A stretch of DNA of 64,000 nt from Talaromyces rugulosus (taxonomy: Eukaryota; Ascomycota; Eurotiomycetes; Eurotiales; Trichocomaceae), in contig NC_049563.1 of the NCBI RefSeq assembly GCF_013368755.1, forward strand, positions 2,170,001 to 2,234,000, given 5' to 3'. The translations under genes and the position numbers were made by a program. The notes beneath the pieces were generated by a model, which was not told where the DNA came from, made no database searches, and saw nothing but the letters and a program-made list of their open reading frames with translations. How positions within the stretch are numbered: the stretch's first letter is position 1; every line of letters begins with the position of its first letter. Shown here in pieces: positions 20,600 to 32,383 of the stretch.

Positions 20600-21776
20600 C
20601 TAGTTAAACTGAAACCCTTTGCTCCCAGTCATCGACCCCTCAAACTGATACCTCTCTTCCAGTTCGTAATACTTGTTAAATCCAACTCCATCACAAACTT
20701 CGGCATATGAGAGAACTGTTGGCGGCTTCCCGACTAGAAACGACCCCTTGATTGCCTCCAGTGTCTCCCGAATGCTCTTCAATTTTGCCGCAACTAATGT
20801 CCAGGGATAAGCCACCGCACAGTATCCCATTTCTCCAAGATCCTTTGCGGACAGGTTCTCAGTCTTGCCGCCTTCAATGATGTTGGAAAATATAGGGATA
20901 CCAGCCAGATCATTTCGAAGGCGGACCATACTCTCCCGGTCTGGAAGAGCTTCCACGAAGATGCAATCAACGCCAATTTCAATTGCTGCTTTGGCTCTCG
21001 TTATGGCTTCGTCGTAGCCAAGAATAAGGCTGTCAGTACGTGCCATAATCCAAATATCTAGTCCTTCGTTTCGGGCATCGACGGCTGCACGCCATCGTGC
21101 ATATGCTTCCCCTCGCGAAACCACATTTTTGCCTTGAGTGTGGCCGCAACCTGTAGAAGATATTTAAGTAATTAGTCTGCATAGTCTGTAGCTTTTAAAG
21201 TTGAGTCAAAGAGATATATTCCCTACGTTTTGGCCAAACTTGGTCTTCAATCATTATACCTGCCGCTCCTGCATGAGCAAACCTAAGAAGTGATATTAGC
21301 ATGGAATGGCAAGAAAGGAAAAACGGTGATATTCACCCCTCAACCGTCCTGCGAACGTTCATCGGTCCCCCGTATCCGGTATCCCCATCTACAAGAATCG
21401 GAACATTTGTAGCCCTGGCAGTTTCTTGAACTTTCCCAACAACTTCTTGAAAAGCAATATACCCCGTGTCAGGAAGGGCTAGAGAGGACGCCATTGGATA
21501 TCCAGCAAGGAAAAGTGCAGGGAAACCAGCCTCTTCACAGAGTTTTGAGCTCAATGCGTCATAGCTACATACAAATGCTAGGATTTTAGCTGGGTCCGCA
21601 TGGGCTTCAAGCATCATGCTCCGAAGTCGTGATGCTTGGAGGGAGGGTATTTTGCCTCTGCACTTGGGTATCTTGACTTCAATGTCTTTGGTGTCGCCAT
21701 TTGCCTTGGTGGATATGGTTTCACTGGCGTTGAAGAGCCACGGATAAGTATTGGTATTGACAATTGAGCGAGACAT
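20600..21776 (-). CDS. Isocitrate lyase / PEP-mutase superfamily lyase (methylisocitrate- or dimethylmalate-lyase-like)
   Basis: Exons 21776-21337, 21282-21227 and 21150-20600 give 348 residues. The (beta/alpha)8 fold of the family is evident: metal site VDGDTGYGGPMNVRRTV, IEDQVWPKRCGHTQGK carrying the catalytic-loop cysteine (Cys167; the lyase signature is K-[KR]-C-G-H), then IMARTDSLILGYDEAITRA and FVEALPDRESM. The cysteine loop argues for a true C-C lyase rather than a phosphomutase. Family members cleave isocitrate, 2-methylisocitrate or 2,3-dimethylmalate, and some fungal relatives hydrolyse oxaloacetate; which applies is not decidable. There is no peroxisomal SKL ending (it ends FQFN) and no clear presequence. 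It is the first gene of the island and points the same way as the adjacent regulator. Confidence 0.85.
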
Positions 21777-22084: not shown

Positions 22085-24630
22085 TCACTGTCCACCAATA
22101 TCCGGCAAGTTCCATAAAAAGTCAAGTGAATCCACTTCCAGTCCGATAGATAGATTGTCACCGTTGAAGCTAAACGGGGCAATGTTGGGATCAAATGGTC
22201 TAGCTAGCCAATCGTCATCAGAGGGGATTTGCTGAGATGAGTGGAATGAGCTATTGAATTGCTGGTCATCAGCAGGTTTCTGGGTTTCATGATATGCTGA
22301 GTACTGCTCGGCCTCATGTGGACGTATCACGTCTTGGGCAACTGGAATATCGTTCTCATGGTCATTGTTATTGTTAGCACTGCCTGTTGGTATACAGCTG
22401 GAAAACTCTGGTAGAGAGTTATTACTACTGTTCATAATATCCAGTAGCTGGTTGTTAGTTGCCCGAGGAGTAAAGTTTGCACAAAATCGTGCCACGTATC
22501 GTTCGATTAGTGTGGCATATCGTATTGAAAAGTCCATGTCATCAACCGTAGAGGACCTTAACGCTGCAATACATCGGTGTAAGCTGTTAATTGCTGTTTT
22601 AAAATCTGCATTAGTGCCTCCGAGACTTAATGCTTTCAAAAGAAAGACAGACGCAGAAGCAACGCAGACAACAATCCTCAAGGGAGTATATCTCAAGATT
22701 GATTGTGCGGCCATGGAAGTGGCCAGGTCCAATATTCTTGTACTGTCATATATGACATCGCGAATGAATTTGTGGTCTTGATTCAGAATGCACGATGCCA
22801 AAATATCATTTCCTGTCTTGTCAAATTTACTAGCTCCTCGTGATATTGCCCTTTCGACCACAGCCTGAATGGCAAGGGCACTGGTGTAAGTCTTTAAATA
22901 GTGGTACTCGATCAATATCAGAGGAACCAATTGAGCTGGTATGTCTATTCAGGAATCGTCAATCTTGACGTTCTAAAGAAAATATAAGACAGCTTACTTG
23001 ACGTAGAAGCAACGAATTCGTCGTGCCATCGAGCCAAAGAAGGCGCAAAGTGTTCCAAGAGAATACTGTATTGACCTGATAGCAACTGCTGTTTGATATA
23101 TGGTGTAGATTGGAAGAACATGGCAGAGGCAGTCTTTATTAGCCTTGTTAATTCTGTCAGTGAATTGACATAACTGTCCCATTTTAAATCGATGTGTTTC
23201 TGCGCTTCCTGCTGTGCGGTGGAGGTCGCCAAGGAGACATTTTCCGGTACGATAGATGCACAACCCATAGTCACAGCTGCCTGAATGATATGGATAGAAA
23301 GTAATTTCCTGGCACGGTACATTCGTGCCACTTGATGAGGGTCCGTGAAAGTAGACGTATCTGCGAAAATACCCAGTTCATATGCTAAGCTTGACGCAGC
23401 TCCCAGAAGCATCCAAGATAATCGCTCCGATCTCTTGGCAGGTTCAAAAACATCTTCTCTCCATCTTATGAGGGGCACTTCTCTTGATGTCTGAATCCTA
23501 TTTCGACGATCATAGTTGGGAGATATCAGTTCACTGTCCCAGCCTTCAGTTTCAGGGGGGAAATGAACTGATCGAGGATGCCAATTGGATAGCAAGATGA
23601 GACTCTCTATCGACCCCACTATCCTTGTCTTTGCTGTAGAGTATTTTTCTTGTCCGAACATTATACGTCGGATAAGTAGTTCACAATACTGCCAAAGTCT
23701 TTGGTGTATAAAATGACTCCGAGAGATTCCACCAGCACCTGGTAAGATAAAGAATCTAGATGAAACCATGAGAAGTGTACAGCATAGCATTGGCTCTTCA
23801 ATAACAAGCCGGTCGTGATTTGAATGCTCTCGGTATGCTTCTGTCACAACAGGCGTAAGCGGTGCAAGATGCCCATGATACCTAGAACCATTAGCGAATA
23901 ATACGGTAAAAATGGGATTTTCTACTCACAGGTCTATATATGTTACCGCTTCTTGGGCTGTAAACCATCCCTGGCGAACAAAGCGACACTTGTCCCACAA
24001 ATCGAGTACATCATCGCTAGGCTGTGATAGCCCAGGTACTGAAACAAGACCGCTGGTGGAAACGTTGCTTAGAGACATTGAATAAGTAGGAGCTGATGCG
24101 TGTGATTGCGGAACCTGGATATCTGTTCGAGTTTTCGGAGGCGATGCGTTGGCTTGAGCGGCCTCGAAGAGGACGCCTAGGGCATCACTGGGTCTGGACA
24201 TAATTGTAGACATCATCGGGCTTACTAGCGACACCTCGCTATTAGAGGCAGAAGGCTGGGCATGAAACTGACTCTCCTCCCTAGAAGGAGTGAGCAAGGG
24301 CTCCTCTGTCTCCGCCTGACTCCAAATTTCCGTAGTAGGATTGCTGCGGTCGGATGACAAGGCATGACTATTCCTATTTCCTCCATGTTGCACTGGGGAT
24401 ACTGCTTGCTGGGCATTCTCTTGCGGGGTAGCCCATTTTGGCGCATCTCTATGTCTTGCAGCTCTCTTCTGGGGCTGGAATTGGCACTCGCGGTGTTCTC
24501 GAAGACACTTCGCACATGGTGGCCCTTGACCGAGGACACATTTGACCTTCCGACTTCGGCAACCCAGGCAGGCTACGTATCCTCGTTTGAACATATTATC
24601 TCGGGGCATCCTGTTGGTACTGGCCGACAT
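22085..24630 (-). CDS. Zn(II)2Cys6 transcription factor of the accessory cluster
   Basis: Exons 24630-23930, 23881-22998 and 22944-22085 give 814 residues. The zinc cluster spans Cys21 to Cys49 (CX2CX6C then CX2CX6C: CLGCRSRKVKC ... CAKCLREHREC). A basic linker and a disordered Ser/Pro/Gln region follow to residue 200. The middle homology region starts near VEEPMLCC-like sequence (LVIEEPMLCCTLLMVSSRF) and includes SHFIHQRLWQYCELLIRR, characteristic of the fungal-specific transcription factor domain. The C-terminal 100 residues are acidic and Asn/Asp-rich, probably activating. The third exon uses the acceptor GAATAG at 22945; the nearer TTTAG would give an immediate stop. By position it is the likely pathway-specific regulator of the flanking lyase, transporter and dehydratase genes. 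Confidence 0.9.
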
Positions 24631-25142
24631 TGTTGAAACCCATAGCGCTTGTATCCGAATGTCAAGATTGCATCACGGAGAAGAAGAGTAAATAACGGGC
24701 AAGTACGTGGTTAACGGATGGGAGCGGACCGACGCGGACACGTTGCCGGCCTTAGCCGAAGAATCGCCCTATTTGGAAGTCTAGTACCCGAAGTTGTAAT
24801 ACCTACACCCACGTTGGATCAAGCCAGGCTTAAGCGTCCAAATGTCATTTTTAGAAACGTCATTTACCAGTGAAACCCGTCTCGATCCGCTTCCGCCCGG
24901 ATCCAGCAGAAAGACCAAGCACCGGCCTGCAGGACCGTGCCCTGGTGGACATCTGGAATTGATAGTCTGGGGAAAAAATCCGGGGTTGCGGGCCCCATAG
25001 CGCAAACCCTAAAGGAAAGGAAAGACTGGTTTCATTATAAATGGTGAAACAATCGACGGCGTAAACATGTACATAAGTCAGGAAGTTTGTTCTATCATAT
25101 CACATTTTGTCCTCTAAATATTCATCTTATTTCAAAATCCTC
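24631..25142. promoter_or_regulatory. Bidirectional promoter between regulator and MFS transporter
   Basis: The 512-bp spacer between divergent starts carries GATCCG-N8-CGGATC at 24884-24903, another inverted repeat with CCG/CGG triplets suited to a zinc-cluster dimer. A TATA-like ATTATAAATGG lies near 25033. These are sequence sightings; regulation is inferred. Confidence 0.45.
24884..24903. promoter_or_regulatory. GATCCG-N8-CGGATC inverted repeat, candidate regulator site
   Basis: Six-base arms GATCCG and CGGATC are separated by CTTCCGCC. The site is placed between the regulator gene and the transporter gene, so it could serve both. Confidence 0.4.
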
Positions 25143-26912
25143 ATGGCGGAAAACAAAGACCCCAAGCCCACTTCCGCGGAGCACGTGGAGGATATGGATA
25201 ACGTGAAGCTAGAAGCAGCGCAGGATCTCAGCACTAATCAGAGACGGGCGACGGTTGCAATGAATTCTCTAGTTGTCAGGAAGGTAACTTACATCCTCGA
25301 ATGTGAGATAAACCATATCTAACTAATAGCAGTACGACATCAGGGTCCTACCACTCGTCTGGGTCCTTTTCATCATCTCATACCTCGATCGTGGAAACAT
25401 AGGCAACGCAAAAACGGCCGGGGCTCAAAGTGACCTGGGTCTAAATAGCACACAGGTACGACTGTCCCGGGTCCAAGGTTCTTCTCTTGCTTGCTAAAGT
25501 AGACTAATTCTAATGAAACTTGTAGTGGTCCTGGGTCCTACTTTCATTTTATATCACCTATACATGCCTTGAATGGCTAGTTTTATGTTGGAAGATCTTT
25601 CCCGCGCATATTTACGTTTCCGTGCTTTGTTTCTTGTATGTGAATGTCTGAAATTCCTTTACCTTTCCGTTTTTGATGGTAACTTTTTAGATGGGGTATT
25701 TCCGCTGTATTCTCCGGCCTTGTTCACAACTACGCCGGTTTAATAGCATGTCGGGTCGCTCTGGCTATTGTAGAAGCTGGGTTTGGAGCTGGTGTTCCTT
25801 ACTACCTTTCGCTCTGCTATAAGCGCCATGAACTGGGGACTCGTCTATCAATTTTGTTGGGGTCGAGTCCAATTGCCAACTGTATTGCTGGCGCTATGGC
25901 TTATGGCATCTCCCAAATTCATTCTAAAGTCGCACCATGGAGGCTCATATTCATTATCGGTTAGTAGCTGACCGTTATGACCAAACGTATTTTCTTACCA
26001 AATATGAAAACTTTCACAGAAGGAGCGCCGTCGATATTGATGGTCTTGCCAGTGTGGTTTTTCCTGATGGATTCACCTTCAACGGCGAAATTTCTCACCG
26101 AGGAAGAACGTACTTTTGCTGTTGAACGGATGGAAACGCGAGATACAACGGGAAAAAGCACATTGTCCAAACGACAGCTACTCGCTGGATTGGCTGACTA
26201 TAAAAATTACTGTCATGCATGTTTGCACTTCTGTTGCAATTACTCTTTCGCCAGCTTGTCCAACTTTCTCCCTACAATCATTGCCGGTATGGGCTATAGT
26301 TCGGTGAACGCACAGGGATTGACGGCTCCTCCTTATCTAGCGGCGTTCCTTTCGAGTATTCTTGTGGCATGGATCTCTGATCGTTATGGGTCCCGGGGAT
26401 GGTTACTGGCATTAAGCGCTACTGTAGGCGCTATAGGATACGCGCTATTAGCCACTCAGTCCGGAGTTGCTGTGCGATACGTGGCTATTTGGCTTGCAAG
26501 CTGTGGTGTCTTCCCAGCTCTCGCAATCAACATGGCTTGGATGTTGAATAATAACGCCGGAGAAACCAAAAAAGGGATCGGGATGTCGATTCTCTCGATT
26601 ATTGGTCAATGTTCATCTTTTTTAGCTTCCTTTGTGTTTCCGGACTCTGACGCGTAAGTCTCAATACCTCTATTATATGAACCCCCTAACTGACGCCTTT
26701 ATTCGATGGGTAGTCCATATTTTATCACAGGTACTGCAATAGGCTGCGGCTTGACTGGATTGATCATTCCAACTGCTCTTGTACTGCACTTTCGTTATGC
26801 AGCCGAGAATAGGCGTAAAGATCGCGAGTTTGGACAGGTTCAGCCAGACCTGGCCCCAATTGACGTTAGTGATATTGGCGACAAACACAATCAGTTCCGC
26901 CTGTTGACTTGA
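25143..26912 (+). CDS. MFS transporter, allantoate permease (anion:cation symporter) family
   Basis: Six exons, 25143-25283, 25333-25455, 25526-25635, 25691-25959, 26020-26653 and 26714-26912, give 491 residues with all junctions in frame. The N-terminal 50 residues are hydrophilic. The first membrane segment and its loop read LPLVWVLFIISYLDRGNIGNAK, the classic signature of the Dal5-like anion:cation symporters (S-Y-L-D-R-x-N). Later segments include GLIACRVALAIVEAGFGAGVPYY and IACRVALA-type motif, WLLALSATVGAIGYALLA and a last segment near TALVLHFRYAAENRRKDR. Twelve membrane helices are expected. Relatives import allantoate, nicotinate, tartrate or other carboxylates, which suits the neighbouring organic-acid enzymes. 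Its loop between helices 6 and 7 has the TEEERTFAVERM element common in this family. Confidence 0.9.
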
Positions 26913-27378: not shown

Positions 27379-30300
27379 ATGCATGTCACCAAAGATCCTC
27401 AAAATTTCAAAATTGCCCTCTTTCCGGTTAACGATGCACTCGGAGTCGAACTAATATCATATGCAAGACGCGTTTTATCCCTGATCCAAAGAATTCGCCA
27501 GAATGATATTTTTGAAATCTCCGAGCACGTATTAGACGGCGCAGCAACGGGCCCAGGAGTGGCTCTACAAACATATCGCAATTCCGATGCAGTCATCACC
27601 ACTGACCTCGAGGGCTACAAATGGAAGAATCATTTCCAAAAAGACCTTGAATTTGCAGCGAAGGTCATACCTGTACGGCTTCCAATCGCTGACTTAGCAC
27701 GGAGGAGCTCGTATAAGGCAGATATCTTGGAAAATCTAGACATAACTGTGATACAAGATTTTTGCATCAAGAACGATGACTATGAGGAGCCCGGCCGGAC
27801 AGAAAGGGTCGACTTTTCAGTACACTTGGCTGCAGGATATTCAATGAAATCCTTACCTGAGAGACCAATCCATATCATTTATTCGGACGACATCACCGCA
27901 TCATGGAAAGACACTGTTATAAATGCCTTGCAGTCAAAGTTTTCAGGAATCAAAGGGAGCTATATGTCCATTACTGATGCGGCCACGGTTCTGTCCCACA
28001 ATCCAACCACCCTGAATGGTGTCATTTTGACAAATTCGGACGTTGTGTCAAATCAAGTCGCAGGGATCATTGATTGTCCTTATATCCTCCCATCTGCCTC
28101 TGTCTCGGCTTCCCAAGGAGGAAAGCCTCGAGGAGTCTTTTCTCCTTTGCAAGCCCAAGTACAAGAAAGCCCTGTTAACCCCCTTGGCATTATTCATGCC
28201 GTTTGCCTTATGCTCGAAACTCTAGGGCTAGCCAAAGAAGCAGAATCCCTGAAAAGGGCGATTATAAAGACCATGGAGCCGATCGAACATATTGGGTCAA
28301 ATATGGGAACAGCCGATATAGGTGGATCAGCGACAGCGGAAATGTTTATGGAAACGCTTTTGGAACATCTTCACGGTTTCCTACAAGCAGCGAACTCTGT
28401 CGAGGCTGCATCCTCTCGGTCGATTCGTCATTTTCCAGTAACAAATAGACGTCCTATGGGAGTAATCGAGAAAATCATGACACATAATGGTGTTGGCCTT
28501 GAAGCACCCGAGGTAAAGCCCGGCGATATGATATGTGTCAAGGTTGATTGGATCTTGACATCTGAGCTTCTATGGGCTGGAATGGAAAAGACATACAACC
28601 AAATGAAACGGCCCCAGCTGTATCGGAATGACCGTTTGTGGCTCGCGGTTGATCACACAGTTGATCCGCGAACTAATCACCAACCTCGTCAACGAAAGCT
28701 TATTGAAAAAGCAGAAGAGTTTCAACGTGAAGCTAAAATAGTTGACTTCTTACCGGCCAACACTAGTATCATGCATACAGATTTCACACGCGAAAGAGCA
28801 CTTCCAGGACAGATTGTAATAGGGAGCGACTCGCATACTTGCTCTTCAGGCAGCATGGGCGCATTCGCCGTGGGATTCGGCGCTGCCGATGTTGTTTTAC
28901 CTATGGTGACAGGTGAAACTTGGTTTCGAGTTCCAGAGGTCTGCAGGATCGACTTTGTCGGAAAACTACCATTCGGTGTTAGCGGCAAAGATGTTATTTT
29001 GCACATACTTGGACTATTCAAACGGAATACAATTGCTTTCCAGCGTGCGGTTGAATACGGTGGGCCTGGGCTTAAAGAGTTGTCTATGGACGCGCGGTTT
29101 GCCATTTCTAACATGACTACCGAGTTTGGAGGCATGGGATCATGTTTTGAAGCGGATGAGAATACCGCCGCTTGGATAGCACAAAGACGACACTCGCAAC
29201 ATCGAGGAGGCCTTTATTTCCGAGCGGACCCTGGAAGCAGATATGCCGAGCAAAGAACCATTGATCTCTCTGGAGTGAAGTCGACAATCGCTCTATATCC
29301 CAATCCGGACAACGTAGTTCCAGTGTCTGAGAAGATTGGAATGAAACTGGACGGTTGTTTTATCGGTGCGTGCACCACCACTGAAGAAGATTTGATTGTT
29401 GGTGCCTTGATTCTTGATGCTGCCCTCAAAGCTGGCACGACGCCTGTATCTCATGGCAAAAGAAGGGTAACTCCCGGCAGCCTAAAAATTATTCGGAATC
29501 TCGAACGCCGTGGACTGTTAGAGATCTACAGGCAAGCAAAATTTGACATCGGAGCCCCGGGATGCTCTTACTGCGTCGGCATCAACGACGTTGATGTTGC
29601 AGGCAAAGGGGAAGTCTGGCTGTCGTCGCAAAACCGGAATTTTCGCAATCGCATGGGAATGGGCAGCTTTGGGAATGTCACCTGTGCAGCAGTTGTTGCA
29701 GCATCCAGCTTTAACATGACAGTTACTGACCCTGCTCCTCTGTGGGAGCGGCTTAACAAAAACACGTTTCAAAAATATGTCATGCACTGGAAGTACAGTG
29801 CCAGCATTGTGCCTGAGACCCAAGAACCAGCCCCGGAGATAACTGGAGCCCCTTCATCGAGTTTTAATCTCAGGAATCCTTCAAAAAATGAAAAATCCAA
29901 GGGTCAACCATTAATCCGTTCAAAAGTTCAGCGCTTCGCAGAAAATGTCGACACGTAAGTAGGCTCCGGAATCTCTGAGCTTAACCCTATAACACGGGCC
30001 CTTTCATGTATTAACGTGAAAATAATGACCAGAGATGCGATTATCCCCGCAGAGTTTATGCCAGGAATCGACAACGCAGACCTCGGCAGCCATTGTTTCC
30101 AGTACTATCGCCCCGAGTTCAGAGAGAAGGCACAAAACGGTTCACGAATAATGTGAGTTAGCCCTGTTATAAAAATTTCCAATCATCTTATACATTAGCA
30201 GTGTAGCCGAGTATGGATTCGGCAGCGGATCATCACGCGAAGATGCGGTGAGAGCATTGCTTGGGGCCGGAATAGAAGCAGTAATTGCTAAGAGTTTTGC

Positions 30301-30728
30301 ATTTATTTGTAAGCAAACAAAATAAGGAAGAGAGCCCAGTGGCAAGATTGAAGGAGTCTAATAAAAGAAATACAGACGAACGGAACCAGCTGAACATGGG
30401 TCTATTTAATATTCAACTGACAGATAAGGAATTCTACGCCAACACCAAAGAAGATTCCGTTATTCTCATTGATAGAGAGCTTAAAGCAGTTCAAATTGAT
30501 GGGCTCGAAAGGGTTTTTCATTATCAGCACTCAGATATAGAAGCAACTCTTCTTGCAGAGGGAGGGGTTTTGCCCTTGTACAACAGATACGGCGCCGCTG
30601 TGTTTCGCCATATTACGAAATCCAACACTAGAAACGGAGGGAAATCTGGATTTCACATAGATGAACCGGAAATGCGTGTGGAAAAGGATACATCGGATAA
30701 GCCGAAAGCTCAAGGTCTGGAATGGTAA
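27379..30728 (+). CDS. Three-part fusion: degenerate IPMDH-like domain + LeuC-like + LeuD-like dehydratase
   Basis: Exons 27379-29954, 30033-30152, 30199-30308 and 30376-30728 give 1052 residues. Residues 1-350 resemble isopropylmalate/isocitrate dehydrogenases: [14 protein letters not shown] for DGIGPE..., [52 protein letters not shown]. Key residues are missing: the metal aspartate pair is D221/N225 (SDVVSNQ), the GGIYFG tyrosine region is absent, and the NAD loop HGSAPDI is replaced by LQAQVQES. Residues 357-800 form an aconitase/LeuC domain with [20 protein letters not shown] and Fe-S ligands Cys665, Cys729 and Cys732 ([15 protein letters not shown]). Residues 858-1000 form the LeuD swivel ([19 protein letters not shown]). 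The dehydratase therefore looks active while the first domain looks catalytically dead. Known members hydrate or isomerise isopropylmalate, homoaconitate, citraconate or dimethylmaleate. The substrate is unknown; the neighbouring lyase suggests a hydratase-lyase pathway. Confidence 0.88.
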
Positions 30729-30934: not shown

Positions 30935-32383
30935 TCACAACTTTGCATTGGTTGGAGAAATATCACCCGCTACATACTCTCCCCGTGTTTCCAAGCTGTG
31001 AACAAAAGAATCCATTGAGTCCTGGGACAGGATTGGAGCTGTACAGTAAGGCTCAATATGAAGATCAGCGAGATGTTTCTTTAAAGTGGGCAAGGTTTTA
31101 GTGAGCGCACGCGCTTCGTGCTGAAAAATGTCTTCGCGACTAAGCTTTAGATGCTGCATAAACCAGCTCATGTCCTGCAATATCACGCCGACAGTAAACA
31201 ACTCCAGAAATTCTGAAGAAACCCTGGCGTTGAGGGCGGCTTCGTATGCGAGCCGATAGCCGAAGAAGTACCTCGGTACCAAGCTCTATTTGCAAAGTTA
31301 AGTACAATTAATCGGTCAGAAGATCAGTAGATTAGCCATGCACATACTGATGCTAAGGGCCAGTGTGTCTCCTTCGGCAATTGCAGCGCCTCGTAGTTCA
31401 AGTTCTGCTTCGATGATGTGGTTGATTTCATATAATCCCATTGCGCCACATCGATTAGATAGAGACGAGAAGCATTGTTGACTTGTCTTGGCCAACAACG
31501 CTTTAAATGTAACTGCTGCCCCATTACGGACCGACGGGATCAGGCTCTCGTCGCAGAATCGTTGTATGCTATCTTGGGCATAGGCCTCAAAAACAGCGGT
31601 TTGAGCCAGCGCATGCAATATAGGACGATTCTGTGTGCGTAGCAAAATTATTGCCATATCCTTGCCTTGAGGATCTGCTATAAACCGTCGATAACTATAC
31701 GTTCCGGCCACATAGACTGCTCGTTTCATCGCTGTAACCAGGATCAGTGCAGCGGCTAGGGTGCCTACATTGACACGGTGAATTGCCGTAAAAAATCCTT
31801 CACGTTCATTGGGTGGTCGTTGTATTGATCCAAGGACTGTCGATGCAGGTAATTTCATGTGGCTGAATATTGTGATTAAGTGATCCAACGGCTTAGAGCC
31901 GGCTCGTCTGGGAAGCAGCCTGTCAGCATAAAATGCGCACTAATCCATTCACACAGGAATTAGAACAACCTTTATAAATTAGTTTGAGCATGTCTTCTCG
32001 AGCTTACGACACATCGAACTTTAGTATTCGGCCAAGAAGCGTCTTCTTAGCCTCATCGGCCTCGGCGAATGGAGCCAGTGCTCCAGCGGCCAGATTGTAT
32101 TGTATCGTAATCAATGTCAATGCTGCCAGATCAATCAAACAAATAGGGTCCTGGTGAAGTTTCCAGAACTATGGACTGAAGCTGAGGATGTCTGTGACTT
32201 TGAAATCTTGATTTGAATTAATGTCCCGCTCGTTTCCCTTGTTGAGTTGATCTTACCACACGCGCGAGAAATGGCACAGGCACGACGATAGCTAATGTCA
32301 ATTCTTTCATCATTTGATAATGTTCCAAGATCAATCCTTAACAAGTCGGTTTTAAGAAGCTGAAATGCTGGAGAGCTGGCCAT
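30935..32383 (-). pseudogene. Broken acyl-CoA dehydrogenase/oxidase-like gene (ACAD NM-domain-like)
   Basis: The remnant can be read from MASSPAFQLLKTDLLRIDLG at 32383 through four homologous blocks. An intron (32254-32204 region) leads into DFKVTDILSFSP, then an in-frame TAG at 32171-32169, then FWKLHQDPICLIDLAALTL; relatives have a basic residue before FW. Next come an intron and the block LLPRRAGSKPLDHLITIFSH ... FFTAIHRVNVGTLAAALIL ... RCGAMGLYEINHI ... ELRGAAIAEGDTLALSI, matching the fungal family. The following roughly 50 residues expected in this family are missing; the next recognisable block (VPRYFFGYRLAYEAA ... EPYCTAPILS) is in a different phase relative to the available splice sites. 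A stop plus a deletion argue for a pseudogene. It may once have served CoA-ester chemistry of the cluster. Confidence 0.7.

Follow-up and report, generated by a model that had tools for sequence, protein, structure and literature searches.

The window analysed here is a stretch of 64,000 nucleotides from Talaromyces rugulosus (NCBI RefSeq GCF_013368755.1, contig NC_049563.1, positions 2,170,001 to 2,234,000), and positions given without a contig label refer to it. At 27379-30728 on the plus strand it carries a gene of four exons encoding a protein of 1,051 amino acids, in which an isopropylmalate dehydrogenase (IPMDH, LeuB) fold is joined to LeuC and LeuD. We propose that an old LeuB-LeuC-LeuD fusion was repurposed: its dehydrogenase half would now be a dead appendage, and the product of its dehydratase half would be cut by a lyase encoded nearby. 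We assign this reading a probability of roughly 0.55. The window protein would most likely isomerise 2- and 3-alkylmalates (or act as a hydratase), its product being cleaved by the lyase rather than oxidised by its own LeuB half.

Gene structure and domains of the fusion protein

Exon 1 (27379-29954) is a single open frame of 858 codons that spans both the IPMDH-like domain (residues ~8-345; 27400-28413) and the LeuC domain (residues ~357-800; 28447-29778). Three introns, all GT-AG, join it to LeuD. Intron 1 (29955-30032; 78 nucleotides, GTAAGT...CAG) precedes exon 2 (30033-30152), which holds the beginning of LeuD including its loop. Intron 2 (30153-30201; 49 nucleotides, GTGAGT...CAG) precedes exon 3 (30202-30308), the part of LeuD bearing the SGSSRE loop. 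Intron 3 (30309-30375; 67 nucleotides, GTAAGC...CAG) precedes exon 4 (30376-30728), with the remainder of LeuD, a C-terminal tail and the stop codon (30726-30728). The acceptor of intron 2 was picked by homologues: an alternative three bases earlier would add one serine, and the homologues agree with 30201.

A Pfam search, run on a 1,052 amino acid form of the protein, matched PF00180 to residues 19-321 (E = 5.8e-13; 49.3 bits against a cut-off of 27) and the dehydratase half to PF00330 (E = 1.3e-70) and PF00694 (E = 1.3e-16). An initial annotation, made from the sequence alone, had described a three-domain fusion with the IPMDH-like and LeuC parts in one continuous exon and LeuD added by spliced exons. 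All three domains and this exon arrangement were recovered, including the PF00180 relationship on which that description depended. The features of the aconitase superfamily are present, namely PF00330, PF00694, the three cluster ligands Cys665, Cys729 and Cys732 in conserved columns, and the SGSSRE loop. AlphaFold models resemble solved IPMDHs over residues ~8-335, in line with the dehydrogenase fold that had been suggested, and the fold is still predicted when decayed rows alone serve as input. At the level of sequence, relatives annotated as one protein with the same domain order support a single transcript for the window gene. The known isopropylmalate isomerases and homoaconitases consist of LeuC and LeuD, or HacA and HacB, whereas the window protein unites the two subunits with a dead dehydrogenase in a single chain.

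Distribution of LeuB-LeuC-LeuD fusions

Relatives were collected with the window protein (E 1e-10; best 120 of 142 relatives taken) and with relative P0102 (E 1e-20; best 120 of 1,580 taken), both searches scoring only the ~8,000 candidates that shared most words. Combined, they gave 201 proteins, or 202 rows with the window protein, and the counts below rest on these. Three-domain chains, mostly of 1,000-1,130 amino acids, occur in many genera; the window protein has the domain order of this fusion family, and its nearest relatives are of the same kind. By the organism names that the sources give, such proteins come from Fusarium, Penicillium, Aspergillus, Clonostachys, Verticillium, Pestalotiopsis and Pseudogymnoascus. 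They are also named from Mortierella, Coemansia, Rhizophagus, Gigaspora, Entomophthora, Allomyces, Piromyces, Synchytrium, Neolecta and several eukaryote transcriptomes, a group which we take to comprise early-diverging fungi, an early ascomycete and protists. The initial annotation had named no described fungal protein of this kind; a unique architecture is ruled out by these many database proteins. The architecture is widespread in databases, yet the titles and abstract openings in the literature searched describe neither the fusion nor the dehydratase-lyase gene pair discussed below.

The intact fusions P0102, P0124, P0139 and P0154 share the domains, their order and the FMPG LeuD loop with the window protein, a loop common to most intact fusions compared; unlike the window protein, they retain all 12 of the dehydrogenase active-site residues scored below. 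At least seven chains (P0176, P0179, P0180, P0181, P0185, P0186 and P0187), from a transcriptome and environmental sources, add PF00682 and PF22617. NCBIfam models were applied to P0176, P0180, P0185 and P0187. In the first three of these, 2-isopropylmalate synthase models give the extra part its best scores, under their cut-offs, and the LeuB part lies above its cut-off. These LeuA-LeuB-LeuC-LeuD chains have the LeuB-LeuC-LeuD core in common with the window protein and differ from it by the synthase domain; the LeuD loop of P0176 and P0180 also differs from FMPG. Intact chains of the two kinds apparently combine two or three successive steps of leucine synthesis in a single polypeptide, the longer ones having the Pfam domains for most of the leucine branch. 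The synthase domain of P0185 is apparently interrupted from about residue 332 by an intein- or Hint-like stretch that begins CLAEGTLVSLANG and has the motif CTPDHRI (by eye).

A bacterial origin of the fusion was considered and set aside, the dehydrogenase and dehydratase lying in separate frames in the three prokaryote loci whose translations were inspected. A scan of prokaryote genomes with P0102 gave 58 loci, and the frames of five were inspected (translations for L031-L033, lengths only for L034 and L086). At L031 and L032 leuC, leuD and leuB are each separate; at L033 the two dehydratase parts share one frame of 644 amino acids, apart from the dehydrogenase; L034 and L086 have separate frames. 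No LeuB-LeuC-LeuD fusion was thus seen in 5 of the 58 loci, located by a pattern search that favours close relatives, and a prokaryotic fusion may yet exist.

Graded decay of the dehydrogenase domain

We scored 12 IPMDH active-site residues across the 202 rows (R94, R104, R132, Y139, K185, D217, D241 and D245, together with E270, H273, D278 and N286), in what we take to be the Thermus thermophilus numbering. The window domain retains the D241 and N286 columns only. R94, R104, R132, Y139, K185, D217 and D245 are all substituted, so that the domain lacks the known kind of alkylmalate site. The loop that binds nicotinamide adenine dinucleotide (NAD) is shortened, with only its N286 column left, and the GGIYFG segment is missing. 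The initial annotation had read both changes from the sequence, and Asn225, the three cluster cysteines and the SGSSRE loop also lie where it had placed them. Its view of a first domain without known catalytic residues, attached to a dehydratase that keeps its machinery, therefore stands.

The curated models agree in separating the window protein from LeuB/LEU2 (3-isopropylmalate dehydrogenase). It scores below the curated threshold in all 25 NCBIfam families listed for it. The leuB model TIGR00169 (cut-off 353.2 bits) is outside its 25 best of 35 families, the last listed of which scores 66.8 bits (E = 8.5e-19), so its leuB score cannot approach 353. The intact fusions P0100, P0102 and P0117 exceed this cut-off (455, 485 and 480 bits, respectively), and Fusarium P0003 lies below it (276 bits). 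With the LeuD/DmdB subfamily model TIGR02087 the window protein reaches 105.4 bits, narrowly below the cut-off of 108.95; among its relatives P0003 (117.4), P0100 (124.9) and P0117 (120.6) are above it and P0037 (100.7) is below.

The dehydrogenase domain is covered to at least 70% in 154 of the 202 rows, to 30-70% in 19 and to a lesser extent in 29. All 12 residues are retained in 69 of the 154 rows and 11 in a further six, one of which (P0093) is of ascomycete type and came from the search with the window protein. Eight to ten are retained in 48 rows and none to three in 30, including the window protein; P0174, a partial gene call, retains six. With P0165, P0166 and P0174 excluded as not of the ascomycete kind, the classes comprise 75 intact, 46 NAD-loop-less and 30 pocket-less rows, some of the last being without LeuD in their gene call. 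Nearly all of the 75 intact rows are from early-diverging fungi or protists. In the 46 NAD-loop-less rows the eight columns R94, R104, R132, Y139, K185, D217, D241 and D245 are present in 96-100%, and D278 (by which the class was chosen) and the HGSAPD segment are absent.

Divergence follows the same grading. In bins of LeuC-LeuD (LeuCD) identity, the ratio of IPMDH to LeuCD distance is 1.11-1.34 for intact, 1.58-2.05 for NAD-loop-less and 3.52-4.64 for pocket-less rows. Regional conservation was computed on subsets of 22 intact, 21 NAD-loop-less, 23 pocket-less and seven half-domain rows. Within the domain, residues 301-350 show the highest conservation in pocket-less rows (0.62) and the lowest in intact rows (0.39). 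In the half-domain rows, coverage is 0.94-1.0 for residues 251-350, nil for residues 51-150 and 0.6-0.7 elsewhere.

A LeuCD tree was built by a quick search, without bootstrap, from 107 rows picked out of 169 that were long enough. It separates 56 ascomycete-type rows, some of them from metagenomes, from the other rows by a branch of length 0.68 (Shimodaira-Hasegawa-like approximate likelihood ratio test support of 100). NAD-loop-less rows are scattered through this group, and pocket-less, half-domain and domain-less rows are nested inside. Domain-less Aspergillus proteins occupy two separate positions, although short gene models may account for some proteins without the domain. In a tree of the dehydrogenase part (56 rows), 25 ascomycete rows group together with a support of 100.

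The intact IPMDH residues of early-diverging fungi and protists suggest that an active fusion came first and that one half then died. The first domain was therefore probably not silent when fused, contrary to the initial annotation, and what is seen in the window is probably the decay of an old two-enzyme chain. Within ascomycetes the decay appears to have gone in steps, and we infer that the NAD loop was lost first, then the pocket, then half or the whole of the domain. Living species hold a graded series in which one half of a bifunctional enzyme dies and the other may be redeployed.

Pairing with a lyase gene

Upstream of the fusion gene, on the opposite strand (20600-21776), lies a gene for a C-C lyase of the phosphoenolpyruvate mutase/isocitrate lyase superfamily (348 amino acids, three exons joined by eye, motif EDQVWPKRCGH). 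Its closest match in the PDB is 3fa3, a 2,3-dimethylmalate lyase (5.3e-46), followed by 4iqd (named phosphorylmutase) and petal death protein 1zlp. A second LeuCD gene of this family lies in the same genome at ~C4:2186.6-2189.2 kb (locus L025, C4:2186612-2190570). This paralogue is nearly without a dehydrogenase domain, similarity beginning only near the end of that domain, and a divergently oriented lyase gene lies ~0.5 kb from it. The main exon of this second lyase matches 3fa3 (9.7e-66) and the oxaloacetate acetylhydrolase 3lye (4.4e-58). The chance that both LeuCD loci would have a lyase within 6.5 kb is ~1.6e-5, assuming uniform placement of the 11 lyase loci above cut-off over 35.76 Mb, an estimate that ignores gene clustering and possible descent of both pairs from one duplication.

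Linkage was also seen in other species. Among the named rows in the best 120 of the fusion and lyase lists, counted by hand, fusion and lyase are on one contig in 9 of the 14 species that occur in both lists, contigs identical in size being taken as the same contig. In Lophiostoma the shared contig has 45,436 bases. A linked lyase of the isocitrate lyase superfamily is therefore found for the window gene, for its paralogue and in these nine species.

Proposed function

LeuCD enzymes of the aconitase type convert 2- and 3-hydroxy acids into one another via the unsaturated acid, and lyases of the isocitrate lyase superfamily cleave 2-hydroxy-3-alkylsuccinates. The ancestor of the window gene would be an ancient eukaryotic gene that joined LeuB to the isopropylmalate isomerase parts LeuC and LeuD; its isomerase half would have made a 3-alkylmalate, and its dehydrogenase half would have oxidised it. 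With the supply of leucine left to separate LEU1 and LEU2, the old fusion may have been given another job. The dehydrogenase half would have lost its NAD-binding loop and then, in the lineage of the window protein, its substrate and metal residues, persisting as a folded appendage that perhaps stabilises the dehydratase or assists its packing. The dehydratase half may still interconvert 2-alkylmalate, alkylmaleate and 3-alkylmalate, or hydrate a dialkylmaleate, and the neighbouring dimethylmalate-lyase-like enzyme would split the product between C2 and C3 into a 2-oxoacid and a carboxylic acid. If the linked lyase cuts the dehydratase product, a lyase branch would have taken the place of the oxidative one at this intermediate.

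A similar pairing operates in nicotinate fermentation, where dimethylmaleate hydratase acts with 2,3-dimethylmalate lyase; there, too, a LeuC/LeuD-type hydratase is paired with a lyase of the isocitrate lyase superfamily, but the system is bacterial, has separate subunits and includes no dehydrogenase domain. The window gene pair points to a directly testable fungal pathway of dehydratase and C-C lyase, one that the titles and abstract openings searched do not describe.

More tentatively, the stage represented by the 46 NAD-loop-less relatives may have been an alkylmalate sensor or an NAD-free decarboxylase acting on the isomerase product, whose pocket was dropped, in lineages such as that of the window protein, once a dimethylmalate-type lyase took over this product, leaving a structural shell.

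Alternative explanations

Several observations weigh against a repurposed fusion paired with the lyase. The LeuC part scores 132.1 bits with the leuC model TIGR00170, far under its cut-off of 560.25, so the substrate, judged from sequence, may be something other than a leucine-type compound. In the window, genes for a regulator and a transporter separate the fusion gene from the lyase. No contig is shared in five of the 14 species (A. sydowii, F. nematophilum, V. albo-atrum, C. rosea and F. oxysporum), some of which are represented by different strains or assemblies, and a shared contig shows linkage, not adjacency. Conservation within the residue classes is partly circular, because the classes were cut by counts of the same residues; the gap between classes and the location of the missing positions in the NAD loop are not built in by the definition. 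The window protein joins the pocket-less rows and the NAD-loop-less P0047 at a support of only 85 in the LeuCD tree, and in the dehydrogenase tree it stands with P0001 apart from the other pocket-less rows, of which a single origin is possible. The principal leucine enzyme may be another one even where the fusion is intact, because Mortierella alpina has, according to one report (PMC8880518), a separate LEU1 homologue and two LEU2 homologues, one of them weak (LeuB2).

The first domain could also be functionless and in the course of being lost, its frame staying open only because any frameshift would also ruin LeuC in the same exon. Its fast evolution fits this account, with the highest distance ratios in the pocket-less rows and an identity between the window protein and P0001 of 88.3% in the dehydrogenase part against 96.2% in LeuCD; so do the half-domain forms and the annotated domain-less Aspergillus relatives in two places of the tree. 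We consider such pure decay possible but doubtful. Regulation of the isomerase by isopropylmalate bound to the dead domain, a form of the scaffold or substrate sensor that the initial annotation had suggested, is improbable. The 46 NAD-loop-less relatives favour it by retaining the eight substrate, metal and catalytic columns, by which their class is partly defined, as expected of a domain that binds a ligand without oxidising it, but seven of these columns are replaced in the window protein. A sensor is thus unsupported in the window protein, because its substrate and metal residues are lost, and possible in Fusarium-type relatives; a structural role would fit.

That the window protein remains the leucine-pathway isomerase of the fungus is very unlikely. 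Related intact chains do pass the leuB model, some with a LeuA domain. However, the genome has a separate LEU1 (L001; leuC 691.2 and leuD 268 bits, both above cut-off) and LEU2-type genes (L009, leuB 400 bits, above cut-off; an exon at L015, 285 bits), because of which we rejected a leucine role, and the window gene is set among a lyase, a regulator and a transporter. We give least credence to an artefact of the gene model, with two genes, or a dehydrogenase pseudogene and its neighbour, joined by annotation: the IPMDH-like and LeuC domains share one open exon, and the same three domains are annotated in one chain in many genera. A repurposed fusion with a dead dehydrogenase appendage remains our preferred reading.

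Other features of the window and genome

Between the lyase and fusion genes are a gene for a Zn2Cys6 transcription factor on the minus strand (22085-24672; several exons, PF00172 on the 23926-24672 piece) and one for a major facilitator transporter on the plus strand (24900-26912; several exons, PF07690 on 25968-26657), both approximate in extent. The N-terminal pieces of the transporter, joined by eye, fall below the Pfam cut-off. Downstream of the fusion gene, a piece on the minus strand (31316-31939) resembles the acyl-CoA oxidase C-alpha1 domain, under the Pfam cut-off, and is either an intron-containing gene or a decayed copy.

Elsewhere in the genome, a second LEU1-like gene lies at C5:564427-566150 (L006), with leuD above cut-off and leuC at 437 of 560 bits on the open frame. 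At C1:105773-109549 (L026), dehydrogenase-type exons and, on the other strand, an aconitase-type exon occur within 4 kb, perhaps as another metabolic cluster.
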